39,392 nucleotides of DNA, taken from assembly GCA_900318115.1 (NCBI GenBank), contig ONJJ01000033.1, positions 1 through 39,392 of the forward strand, read 5' to 3'. A model generated the notes under the pieces. The model saw only the letters and a list, made by a program, of their open reading frames with translations. It did no database searches and was not told the origin of the DNA. Numbering within the stretch: position 1 is the first letter of the stretch; each line of letters opens with the position of its first letter. The translations under genes were made by a program, and so were the position numbers. The stretch is from an uncultured Prevotellaceae bacterium (GTDB lineage: Bacteria; Bacteroidota; Bacteroidia; Bacteroidales; Bacteroidaceae). Below, one piece after another: positions 27,497-39,392 of the stretch.

Positions 27497-27538
27497 GGCG
27501 AGTTGGGAAGGGCCCCCTTGCTACAGCCCGCAGAAAGT

Positions 27539-27710
27539 GATACAGAATACAGAATACAGTTTTCTTGTGAGCAATGCAAAAAGTGGCAATTAAAAATTAC
27601 AATATATACTATTATATATATATAATAGTATATATTGTAAAATTCTTCCACCCATTTTTCAGCACCCAATGTTATAGCTCCTGAGAAAACTGTATTCTGT
27701 ATTCTGTATC
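27539..27710. repeat. 172-base nested inverted repeat with a perfect 44-base palindrome
   Basis: The outer arms are a perfect 27-bp inverted repeat (27539-27565 and 27684-27710) made of tandem ATACAGA heptamers and ending in TTTTCT. The centre, 27597-27640, is a perfect palindrome of 22 + 22 bases, A/T only except for one C or G near each end and in each arm. The DNA between is not symmetric. No reading frame crosses it. It could be a non-autonomous mobile element, a double hairpin RNA or a cruciform-forming site. Confidence 0.85.
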
Positions 27711-27806
27711 CATTTTCCATACGGATAATGTTGACTTGTCAGTCTGGATTAGTGGACTCTTTTCTTTGAGTGGGTTTACATTTTTTCCCGTGAGGTGATG
27801 CCAGGG

Positions 27807-36433: not shown

Positions 36434-37084
36434 ATGAAAAAGATTACGATTCTGCTCCTTTCCTTAACAGTGGTGTTCAACTCCTGTATCTCCTACGGAG
36501 GCGCTATCACGGGAGGTTCCGTGGCAGGCTCTCTCTTAGGGAGTGCCATTGGAGGTATTCTGGGAGGACCGCGCGGTAGCGATATTGGTACGATTATCGG
36601 CGGACTCGGAGGTATGGCTGCCGGAACGGGCCTGGAAATGATGAGGGCTAAGAAGTACGAGGAGGCACAGATGGGAAACCAACCTCGAGCCGAGAGACAG
36701 ATAAACAGGAGAGAAAAGGACAACCAGGAGCTTGTCTATACCCCGCTCAGCATACACAATCTGCAGCTCATAGACAACAACAATGACCATTCCTTCAACC
36801 GCGGCGAGACCTGCACGCTGGTGTTCGAATTGAGGAACAATGCTCCAGAGAGCGTGAGTGACGTGCAACTGGAAATCAAGGACCTGGACAAGAACAAGCA
36901 TCTCAGCTACTCGACCTTGCCGCTGATAGAGAACATCGCCTCCAAGCAGAAGTTGCGCATCACAGCGTATGTCTATGCCGACGAGAAGTTGAAGGACGGC
37001 ACAGCTCGCTTTGCCATCTTCGGAGCGGTAGGAAACGAAGAGGCCGTGTCACTCATCGAGTTCACGGCCCCAACTAAGAAGTAA
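36434..37084 (+). CDS. Glycine-zipper lipoprotein
   Basis: The 216-residue product has a lipoprotein signal (MKKITILLLSLTVVFNSC, Cys18). Next comes a glycine-zipper region (residues about 23-64: GGSVAGSLLGSAIGGILGG, then SDIGTIIGGLGGMAAGTGLE) able to insert in or pack against membranes. A charged linker and an Ig-like beta domain (TPLSIHNLQLIDNNNDHSFN, then CTLVFELRNNAPESVSDVQL) follow. It is probably an outer-membrane or periplasmic envelope protein. It starts 23 bases after the AraC gene and ends at a terminator. Confidence 0.75.
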   Translation: MKKITILLLSLTVVFNSCISYGGAITGGSVAGSLLGSAIGGILGGPRGSDIGTIIGGLGGMAAGTGLEMMRAKKYEEAQMGNQPRAERQINRREKDNQELVYTPLSIHNLQLIDNNNDHSFNRGETCTLVFELRNNAPESVSDVQLEIKDLDKNKHLSYSTLPLIENIASKQKLRITAYVYADEKLKDGTARFAIFGAVGNEEAVSLIEFTAPTKK

Positions 37085-37108
37085 CATCTTCTATCTGAGG
37101 ATTTATCA

Positions 37109-37141
37109 CCTCCTGGAGTTCTCTTTTCTCCAGGAGGTTTT
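37109..37141 (+). terminator. Intrinsic terminator after the glycine-zipper lipoprotein
   Basis: CCTCCTGGAG (37109-37118) pairs perfectly with CTCCAGGAGG (37128-37137) around a 9-base loop and is followed by TTTT and more T-rich sequence. Confidence 0.88.
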
Positions 37142-37191
37142 CTTTTCCTGCTATAGGTTCTCTTTCCTCTGGAACTTCCTACAGAAATCTG

Positions 37192-38319
37192 TTACAATGC
37201 TTCGAGCATTCTCTTGAGCACCACCTGAGCAGATATCTCGCGGTTGGCTGCTTCGGGGATGACGAGGCTGCGTGGCGATTCGATGACGTCGTCCGTGACA
37301 ATCATGTTTCTTCTTACGGGCAGACAGTGCATGAAATGGGCGTCGTTGGTCACGGCCATCTGACGGGCACTGACGCACCAGTCCATCATCGTATGGTAGT
37401 CGTGCAGCACCTTGCCGTAGTCTTCGGGACGGGTGACGCCCGGGCAGCTCCAGTTCTTGGCATACACAAAGTCGGCACCCTCGAAGGCCTTCATCTGGTC
37501 GTACTCCACACAAGCACCTGCGGCGAACTGCGGGTCGAGCTCGTAGCCCTCGGGGTGCGTGATGACGAAGTCGATGCCAAGTCCCTGTTGGGAAGCGGCC
37601 AGCATCCATTCGGCAAAAGAGTTGGGAACCGCCTGCGGTAAGGCTTTGGGATGTGGTGCCCAGGAGAGGACAACCTTGATGGGCCGACCTGGGCACAGCC
37701 CCCCTCCCCGCATTCCCGAGCAAAGCTCGCCTACCCGTAGGCTTTCCCCCTCAAGGGGGAGAGTAGAATGTATTTGAGAGGGGACCTGATCTTGGAGGTG
37801 ACCTCTCTCCCCCTTTAGGGGGAGCGGGGAGGGGGTCTGCTCCTCAATCGTGATTAGGTCAGCAAACGCCTGCAGGGGATGCACCGTGGCGCTCTCCATG
37901 AAGAAGACGGGACGACCGGAGTAGCGGATGAACTGATTCAGGATTTTCTCCTCATAGTCGTCCTCACGGCTCTCGAAGCGGGCGAACGAGCGCACGCCGA
38001 TGAGGTCGCAGTAGGAGGCCATCACGGGGATGGCTTCCAAGAGGTGCTCGCTCTTGTCGCCGTCCATGACGACGCCGCGCTCGGTCTCCAGCTTCCAGGC
38101 GCCCTGGTTCACGTCGAGCACGATGACGTTCATGCCCAGGTTCATCGCAGCCTTCTGCGTCGAGAGGCGTGTGCGCAGTGAGTTGTTGAAGAAGATGAGC
38201 AGCGCGGTCTTGTTGCGACCGAGGTGCTGCCACTGGTAGCGGTCGCGCTTCACTTCCTGCGCTTCCGCGAGGGCGACGTTCAGGTCGCCAAGGTCTGTAA
38301 CATGTTGAAAAACTTTCAT
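37192..38319 (-). CDS. argF': N-succinylornithine (or N-acetylornithine) carbamoyltransferase with an in-frame repeat insertion
   Basis: The 375-residue enzyme belongs to the argF' class that carbamoylates acylated ornithine in arginine synthesis. The carbamoyl-phosphate loop (SLRTRLSTQ, residues 47-55), HPLQ (147-150), DLGDL start and MHCLPVRRNMIVTDD end are intact. Position 90, reported to decide acetyl (Glu) against succinyl (Pro and others) use, is Ser here (GDKSEH), favouring succinylornithine. Relatives have about 318 residues. The excess is about 47 residues between ITIEE (160) and KVVLSWAPHP (215), where a palindromic repeat (37694-37841) reads through in frame. It follows the TldD-like gene by 6 bases. 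Confidence 0.92.
   Translation of the reverse strand: MKVFQHVTDLGDLNVALAEAQEVKRDRYQWQHLGRNKTALLIFFNNSLRTRLSTQKAAMNLGMNVIVLDVNQGAWKLETERGVVMDGDKSEHLLEAIPVMASYCDLIGVRSFARFESREDDYEEKILNQFIRYSGRPVFFMESATVHPLQAFADLITIEEQTPSPLPLKGERGHLQDQVPSQIHSTLPLEGESLRVGELCSGMRGGGLCPGRPIKVVLSWAPHPKALPQAVPNSFAEWMLAASQQGLGIDFVITHPEGYELDPQFAAGACVEYDQMKAFEGADFVYAKNWSCPGVTRPEDYGKVLHDYHTMMDWCVSARQMAVTNDAHFMHCLPVRRNMIVTDDVIESPRSLVIPEAANREISAQVVLKRMLEAL
37700..37835. mobile_element. Palindrome-rich repeat element inserted in argF'
   Basis: Perfect 12-bp terminal inverted repeats, CCCCCTCCCCGC (37700-37711) and GCGGGGAGGGGG (37824-37835), bound a 136-base element. Inside are four further hairpins: CGAGC/GCTCG (37717-37721, 37725-37729), GCCTAC/GTAGGC (37729-37734, 37737-37742), TCCCCC/GGGGGA (37745-37750, 37755-37760) and CTCCCCC/GGGGGAG (37807-37813, 37818-37824). 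No transposase is encoded, so it is a MITE- or REP-like element. It keeps the argF' frame open. Exact ends and any target duplication are unclear. Confidence 0.8.
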
Positions 38320-38325
38320 ATAATT

Positions 38326-39392
38326 TTATTTTCTATGTAGCGGGAAGGTGAGGGGAATCTTGGCGGGCTGCTCGGGCGTTGTGGTAGGCACTTCCACATC
38401 GTTGAGTAGCATGGCCTTAGGACCTATGATGGAGAAGCGGGCCCCGTTATCCTCGCTGTTGACGACATCTGTCTGCTCGGTGGAGAGGGCGCTGATGTGG
38501 CGCATCATGTTCAGGGTTGGATTGATGTTGGGCTTGCGCAGCGGTTTCTCGCTGCCGTCCTTAACGTTGACGCAATAGAGGGCATCCTTACGCACGATAT
38601 AGGCATGGTCGTAGCCCTCGCGCTGTGCGTCGCGCAGGAGCTTCTTGCGCATCTTCTTGAGCGGTAGGGTCTTGCTGCTCTCTATGCGGATAACGCCGGG
38701 TGCCGTGCTGGCCGCCAAGGCTCCGTTCCATGTGTTGGGATTGTTGAAGCGCAGGTTTCCCGTCGGAGCAGGGGTGCCCAGTGCCGGCGTGGCGCCACAT
38801 AGTTGCCCACGGAAGATGCCGTGTTCCACCAGCGTTACGGCCTGCGGCGCCTGCCCGTTGGCGTCTGCTGTGTAGTAGCCCACAAGCGGCTTGCCTTCCC
38901 ACTGACGCAGCGTCGGGTCTTGGCGAATACTAATCTTCTCGTCCACAATCTTGCGGTCGCGCCTCACAAAGATGCTTCGGTCGCTCTCCGTAAACGGATG
39001 TCGCGCACGGAAAATGTAGTTTCCGGAGCCGGTTAGGTTGTATATTCTCCGGCTGGCGCCGTTCTCCAGAAGCACGGGTCCCACGTAGTAATCCTCGGCT
39101 ATCGAGTCGCGGAGCGTACTGAGCCGGTTGCCTACGTACTGGCGCAGTTGCCGGATAAATTGTGCACTGTCGGCCAATGCTTCGCTGGCTGTACTATATT
39201 TTTTCTCATGCTCGGAATTAACATCCCCTACGTTCGCTTTACGATATAGGTGGAAGTCGAAAACGATGGTTACAACGTCGTCCTGCGGCTGTGCCACGCG
39301 GACGCCCTCGCTCGTCAGGCGGTAGATGTCGGCCTGCCTTAGGGTTATTTCCGCCCGGCTGTCGGTCAGTTCGGGGAACTCGTTGGCGATGA
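38326..39392 (-). CDS. TldD/PmbA-like protein, N-terminal part outside the window
   Basis: The reverse-strand frame stays open to the window edge (it reads IANEFPELTDSRAEITLRQA at the edge), so the gene is cut at its 5' side; 355 codons are seen. The GTG at 39297 is internal, not the start. The stretch EGKPLVGYYTADANGQAPQA and TLVEHGIFRGQLCGATPALG resembles the C-terminal domain of TldD/PmbA metallopeptidases. The metal-binding HExxxH motif is not in the visible part. The argF' ATG lies 6 bases downstream, so the two are probably one transcript. Assignment is moderate. Confidence 0.55.
   Translation of the reverse strand, partial: IANEFPELTDSRAEITLRQADIYRLTSEGVRVAQPQDDVVTIVFDFHLYRKANVGDVNSEHEKKYSTASEALADSAQFIRQLRQYVGNRLSTLRDSIAEDYYVGPVLLENGASRRIYNLTGSGNYIFRARHPFTESDRSIFVRRDRKIVDEKISIRQDPTLRQWEGKPLVGYYTADANGQAPQAVTLVEHGIFRGQLCGATPALGTPAPTGNLRFNNPNTWNGALAASTAPGVIRIESSKTLPLKKMRKKLLRDAQREGYDHAYIVRKDALYCVNVKDGSEKPLRKPNINPTLNMMRHISALSTEQTDVVNSEDNGARFSIIGPKAMLLNDVEVPTTTPEQPAKIPLTFPLHRK

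Follow-up and report, generated by a model that had tools for sequence, protein, structure and literature searches.

Palindromic repeats in frame in argF' and other genes of uncultured gut Bacteroidaceae are probably translated into extra protein

Rickettsia palindromic elements (RPEs) have counterparts in Wolbachia. In Rickettsia itself, RPEs are described as 105–146 bp elements with a long stem-loop and terminal inverted repeats, which lie in frame in 19 protein genes and also in intergenic regions; an RPE-bearing guanylate kinase was reported to be still active with an altered substrate affinity (PMC2229807). REP palindromes are described as paired in inverted orientation and in some cases located within ORFs, and in two Xanthomonas species approximately the same position in recB is described as occupied by different REPs (PMC3733652). 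MITEs are small and have terminal inverted repeats; the accounts given in PMC2229807 and PMC4596501 include in-frame MITE fusions and the BrickBuilt elements of Porphyromonas gingivalis, and PMC4596501 characterizes prokaryotic MITEs as almost exclusively intergenic. For Bacteroidetes, a tyrosine transposase subclass (2.6) is described that is flanked by atypical secondary structures, copies of which occur elsewhere in the genome (PMC6006769).

The element analyzed here was found in a stretch of 39,392 nucleotides from an uncultured Prevotellaceae bacterium (the window). It is located in argF' (37192–38319, minus strand), an ORF of 375 codons that is free of breaks from start to stop, as the initial annotation had stated, and that reads through the palindromic element. 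Judged by its sequence, the gene product is an N-succinylornithine (or N-acetylornithine) carbamoyltransferase, the Bacteroides-type transcarbamylase of arginine synthesis. The NCBIfam model PRK04523.1 matched two stretches of it with 270.7 bits, which is below the cut-off of 288. Pfam assigned the N domain to residues 12–160 and the C domain to residues 239–368. The closest structures are those of the N-succinylornithine transcarbamylase from B. fragilis (PDB 1js1 and 2fg6). By means of phmmer, 1js1 was aligned to residues 1–164 and 212–374 with nothing aligned between them, and a Foldseek search with the AlphaFold model recovered the transcarbamylase fold (1js1, 63% identity, E-value 2.3e-44). 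The host enzyme thus resembles that of B. fragilis, which differs in having a short linker, EEYKKTARPK. Domain matches, PDB alignment and AlphaFold model delimit an N-terminal half (residues 1–160; 37840–38319, minus strand) and a C-terminal half including the stop codon (37192–37695, minus strand). The insert separates the two carbamoyltransferase domains, in agreement with the earlier proposal that it lies between conserved segments. The AlphaFold model has a mean pLDDT of 81.7 and most of the remaining fold is confident; residues 171–207, between a helix (148–161) and a strand (214–222), are the sole stretch with a pLDDT below 50. Because the low values are confined to these residues, the insert is predicted to form a disordered loop.

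The initial annotation had described a palindromic element of 136 bp. The palindromes were confirmed; the size was not, as the best boundaries are 37696–37839, which corresponds to 144 bp. This class A element (minus strand, in frame, 48 codons) consists of two inverted hairpin units that are separated by a spacer (37764–37804, minus strand). On the coding strand, its 5' end is the 16-nt terminal inverted repeat CAGACCCCCTCCCCGC (37824–37839) and its 3' end the 16-nt repeat GCGGGGAGGGGGGCTG (37696–37711); the two are 94% complementary. The inner hairpin arms (37805–37823 and 37745–37763, 19 nt each) are 95% complementary, and each is a palindrome in its own right. The stretch HLQDQVPSQIHSTLPLEGE belongs to the encoded insert. 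A second copy, L034, occupies the same argF' loop in the sister genome G018. It comprises 110–111 bp and is 97% identical to the window element over 98 bases; among 34 codons compared between the two inserts, three have synonymous and two have other changes, numbers that are too small for a contrast of the two types. An additional 33-bp segment of the 3' arm (37712–37744, minus strand, 11 codons) is missing from the G018 argF' copy. It recurs in an equivalent context in a further class A copy, G018:C52, and is therefore a variant of the repeat and not private noise. The best inverted repeat of the linker has 18 pairs, compared to a maximum of 10 in 100 shuffled sequences and of 9 in 16 stretches of the same length from the same gene. 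When the window was scanned in 246 blocks of 160 bases, a single block, which is intergenic, scored higher (20 pairs). The window also contains an intergenic 42-nt inverted repeat of the ATACAGAATACAG type (27534–27715, 86% complementary), possibly from another repeat family, which encloses a perfect AT-rich palindrome of 44 bp (27597–27640).

For a comparison with relatives, the linker was measured from the HPLQAFA motif to the WAPH strand. The sample comprised 98 whole genes among 127 same-genus genomes with a match, within the matches listed; the others are G138 and G074 (contig ends or missed by the motif) and 27 further genomes. Since the match list was ordered by the E-value of an insert-bearing query, window-like genes are favored in this sample. 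Nearly all genomes compared are drafts, including the named members of the genus, which are labeled Bacteroidaceae or Bacteroidales. The linker has 15 residues in 50 of the 98 genes (among them L048, which looks like a leftover and not like the plain type), 14–17 residues in 65, 18–28 in 20, and 36–62 in 13. Among 80 named loci, some of them genus members, 79 could be parsed; 62 of these have 15 residues. A short linker is therefore the common state, and the 62-residue linker of the window is most likely derived. The difference of the latter from the 15-residue type agrees with the 47 or so extra residues estimated initially, and the segment is, as anticipated, not common to all close relatives. 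In nine of the named relatives (L150, L152, L156, L157, L160, L171–L173 and L177), this site is occupied by a linker of 34 residues that is conserved (NPLFGG) and is perhaps an old insertion, now constrained. Two argF' genes are present in the draft G020 (L044/L136 and L137). One is partial, lies at a contig end and has an insert like that of the window; the other is complete and its linker is empty. Contamination may be the cause.

These data invite the reading that the argF' loop is an ordinary hypervariable loop, which grew by slippage and local duplication and received no dispersed element. Simple tandem arrays occur in some linkers (L106, L127), the lengths from 14 to 62 residues form a nearly continuous series, and no palindrome stands out in the two tested relatives with the conserved 34-residue loop. 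Such growth does not, however, account for similar full-length copies at unlinked loci. These are, with the spacer included, 83–88% identical over approximately 110 bases in G018 and 79–88% identical over approximately 120 bases in G023. Local growth is thus contradicted for the class A inserts and possible for shorter linkers; as an explanation of the window insert we regard it as very unlikely.

The prediction that the element would be present elsewhere held true. A search of 20 genomes, in which one palindrome may count several times, by its halves and by each strand, yielded 22 places for the L034 element in the window's own genome and 89 in G018, partial matches included, and none in G025. 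The L036 element was found at 59 places in G023, and the AT-rich L107 element at 27 places in G025 and 66 in G030. With two candidates scored per genome, the L036 element was matched in at least 94 of 399 genomes of the family, representing 13 of 30 genera. An alignment of 14 repeat units did not bring the stems into register. On the element trees, copies within ORFs and other copies are intermixed: the A036 type requires 9 changes between the two states (L261 counted as in-ORF; 13 of 200 shuffles were as low), and the A034 type requires 4 (27 of 200 shuffles as low). As the trees do not set them apart, genes and intergenic gaps seem to be supplied from a common pool of elements, and a separate "coding" lineage was rejected.

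Repeats of unlike families have filled the argF' site itself time and again, and such elements are present in many further genes; neither was part of the initial annotation. Repeat classes were assigned by eye. Class A, with C-rich hairpins and often CAGACCC or AGCCTCACCCC ends, is present in L033–L037, L039, L041, L043 and L053, and in shorter forms in L046, L047, L049, L050, L108 and L114. Class B (GGGGCAAGGAGCAAG) is present in L040 and L042, and L038 contains class B within class A. The AT-rich class C (CAATTCACAATT) is found in L107. The 13 long linkers (36–62 residues) thus contain repeats of at least three unlike families, and all of them are in frame. For 12 of these inserts, no more than 3 of 100 shuffles attained the best inverted repeat, the exception being L043 (10 of 100). 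For the six shorter linkers that were judged to be inserted (23–27 residues), the score was reached by 7, 7, 10, 11, 19 and 70 of 100 shuffles and is not above background. Other genomes, each assembled on its own, have different inserts at this site; a mis-assembly of a single genome is therefore unlikely.

A careful DNA tree of the argF' flanks requires at least 10 changes for the 13 long inserts and at least 14 for all 19, and other argF' trees gave 10–11 and 13–15 changes, respectively; these counts rest on the tree of one gene and could be inflated by transfer or recombination. The empty L051, for example, is placed amid the inserted L046, L049 and L050. A single ancient insertion into argF', which later diverged or was overwritten through exchange between copies, would agree with the linkers of L045 and L048 (from G011 and G010), which resemble the joined ends of an element that has been lost, and the occurrence of the window's 33-bp variant in another copy would fit such exchange. 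Against this stands the finding that short EEHKxxARPK-type linkers are scattered among the filled ones in the tree. Moreover, the AU test rejects an origin of the 13 inserts in one clade (p = 2e-44), and the three classes are unlike in sequence. One ancient insertion is therefore improbable.

In-frame copies were also found in conserved protein genes other than argF', in addition to copies between genes. In G018, all six near-full-length copies among the matches listed (at least 110 of 123 bases) are in frame inside genes, namely argF' and L309–L313, whose products contain OEP, AAA helicase, GH106, SSF/NANM and amidohydrolase domains. In G023, 10 of 20 regions have an in-frame copy, CTP synthase (PyrG) being among the hosts. 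Further hosts are a UvrD-like helicase, a polysaccharide deacetylase and an arabinofuranosidase. The window's own genome has in-frame copies in FecR-like, SprA-like, sigma-54 regulator and DsbD-like genes. Within the sigma-54 regulator, the element lies between the receiver (14–129) and the AAA domain (174–334), and in the DsbD-like protein between DsbD_N (33–140) and DsbD_TM (257–468). The same genome encodes an ORF of 274 residues with no Pfam match (L021:1083–1904, contig C16), which contains three tandem units of approximately 132 bp with a class A hairpin. In-frame elements were also seen in L234, L245 and L244, whose ORFs read like release factor 3, FeoB and asparagine synthase (named by reading), and a 943-residue ORF of G082 that reads like beta-galactosidase (L226:2–2830) contains several element-like stretches.

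Three genes were examined because element copies had turned up there. CarA has two loops with differing repeats; parsing succeeded at 18 of 30 loci for one loop and at 29 of 30 for the other. The carA loci L349 and L357 (G082 and G047) carry two or three element-like stretches in frame, and the repeats in each loop differ across species. A fusion of carA and carB via the element was considered and dropped; the carA ORF extends over at least 900 codons in many relatives. In PyrG, the element is located at residue ~458, inside the GATase match (336–594); among 18 parsed genomes, the loop is plain in 10 and longer in 8, with at least three different fillings. The dihydroorotase-like gene was parsed at 12 of 12 loci and its loop varies widely.

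The reading frame was scored at 47 places in 40 regions of G018 and G023. The element was in frame at 15 places, had a coding sequence on one side at 19, and was flanked by the same frame with a stop at 6; the remainder comprised different frames or strands (5), neither (1) and an edge (1). Ten of the out-of-frame or stopped places were inspected and are consistent with positions between genes. With argF' copies included, 19 of 33 places were in frame at loci of the L034 element, 21 of 39 at loci of the L036 element, and 4 of 38 for class C; these calls, like those at the 47 places and those for the two-arm copies below, were made with a home-made codon score trained on the analyzed loci, and the region set of G018 and G023 overlaps the element-loci set and likewise includes argF' copies. 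Initial scoring placed 31 of 53 two-arm copies in ORFs; the number is 30 after removal of L261, which has a stop just outside the element. Two-arm copies with longer spacers also occur outside ORFs in G018 (L314, L323). The length of the copy is a multiple of three in 24 of 31 copies in ORFs and in 12 of 22 elsewhere (p = 0.13), or in 24 of 30 versus 12 of 23 after moving L261 (p = 0.04). For the A036 type alone, which was picked afterwards, the values are 16 of 17 and 8 of 17 (p = 0.007). Length modulo three was set aside as proof of selection for frame, as the pooled result is fragile and changes with one correction. Of the 17 in-ORF copies of the A036 type (L261 left out), 16 are read in the SLT/GLT frame, a preference that spacers purged of stop codons could explain.

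RNA folding of 37696–37842 gave -84.4 kcal/mol, compared to -61.5 kcal/mol (sd 4.3) for shuffled sequences (z = -5.4); the values are -84.2 kcal/mol and z = -9.3 for the L034 element of G018, and z = -10.6 for the L036 element. An mRNA hairpin of -84 kcal/mol should hinder ribosomes or attract RNase III, and its tolerance in argF' is therefore surprising. Elements that are bypassed by ribosomes are known elsewhere. The stability of these hairpins and the sharp ends of the elements would fit a removal of the segment before or during protein synthesis, either as a self-removing RNA or by ribosome bypass of the strong hairpin. A removed or skipped segment would need neither the reading frame nor freedom from stop codons, and this argues against removal. 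At 98 of 103 parsed argF' loci, a single ORF contains both motifs; of the other five, four are fragments at contig ends, from two genomes, and L075 escaped the motif. At none of the 103 are the two halves in different ORFs. The other in-frame host ORFs have no stop in the element, and Rfam returned no family at its threshold over 36900–39392. We consider removal or bypass highly improbable. The initial annotation had likewise rated a spliced or processed mRNA as less likely, and this assessment is sustained: none of the genes examined has its halves in different frames or a stop in the insert.

By far the most probable explanation is that the window insert is a copy of a dispersed palindromic family, which inserts at many places, and that selection keeps in-frame copies in tolerant loops, where they would be translated as disordered loops. 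According to this proposal, bipartite palindromic repeats (two inverted hairpin units and a spacer, mostly ~105–156 bp), which belong to at least three unlike families, insert at various sites in the genome. A copy that lands in frame and free of stops in an extendable loop would be kept and translated; copies that land otherwise within genes would be lost. The interdomain loop of argF' would then be such a tolerant place, which was filled independently several times in this genus. One could go further and assume that loops of conserved enzymes are a main living space of the elements: unlike palindrome families would preferentially enter translated surface loops, or be kept there for a benefit, and the mRNA hairpin would tune the synthesis of arginine and pyrimidine enzymes (argF', CarA, CTP synthase, dihydroorotase-like gene). 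We regard this extension as unlikely.

The moving agent is presumably an enzyme. None of six loci with a full-length Y1_Tnp gene has a match to the A034, A036 or C107 element within ~1.5 kb, and a weak element match lies beside 2 of 16 partial Y1_Tnp loci. A Y1_Tnp match is absent from 9 of the 20 genomes, which are incomplete, including the copy-rich G023 (59 element matches) and G011. REPs with a RAYT were rejected as candidates: no copy adjoins a full-length Y1_Tnp gene, and hairpins were sought, too, at three loci of the own genome. The units have no GTAG/CGTC tag at their foot; their ends, determined by eye, are (C)AGACCCC or AGCCTCACCCC. The best repeats flanking the elements do not exceed in length those of a swapped-flank control (52 places, none a recent insertion with an exact empty site). 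Membership in the REPs or MITEs is not established, because no such tag, adjoining Y1 transposase or target duplication was found. Y1 transposases may still be the movers, as the Bacteroidetes subclass is described as using atypical structures (PMC6006769).

If this interpretation holds, repetitive DNA has probably been turned into extra protein in uncultured gut bacteria, a statement that rests on genome sequences. Within the sample, gut Bacteroidaceae carry 30 full two-arm copies of protein-coding palindromes in ORFs. That the same loops have been filled anew with unlike repeats in different species would constitute a natural replicate experiment on the conversion of repeat DNA into protein, on loop tolerance and on the passage of ribosomes through hairpins of approximately -84 kcal/mol. 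It also bears on how rumen and gut genomes are annotated and how the structures of their proteins are predicted.

Among the known systems, the RPEs are similar in that they are palindromic hairpin elements of comparable size (the window element falls within ~100–150 bp) with terminal inverted repeats, and occur in frame in genes as well as between them. The comparison with RPEs made at the outset stands as an analogy, by description and not by sequence. The differences are the phylum and the occupation of the same loop by unlike repeat families in many species. With intragenic GTAG/CGTC REPs and REPINs, the elements share two inverted palindromic units with a spacer, the location within ORFs and the presence of unlike repeats at one site; in contrast, they end with (C)AGACCCC or AGCCTCACCCC, adjoin no full-length Y1 gene, and show a larger recurrence with at least 10 changes in one genus. 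The structures linked to transposase subclass 2.6 belong to the same phylum, whereas adjacency to transposase genes was not found for the elements analyzed here. Small size and terminal inverted repeats are shared with MITEs, and the host of BrickBuilt is of the same phylum; unlike MITEs, class A is often intragenic, and there is no excess of target duplication. No paper on in-frame palindromes in Bacteroidota was found in the literature searched, most subscription journals being outside its reach. A protein-coding palindrome is thus a kind of element already known from Rickettsia and from intragenic REPs; what may be new is that it occurs in this phylum and in this number of genes, and that unlike families have filled the same loops again and again.
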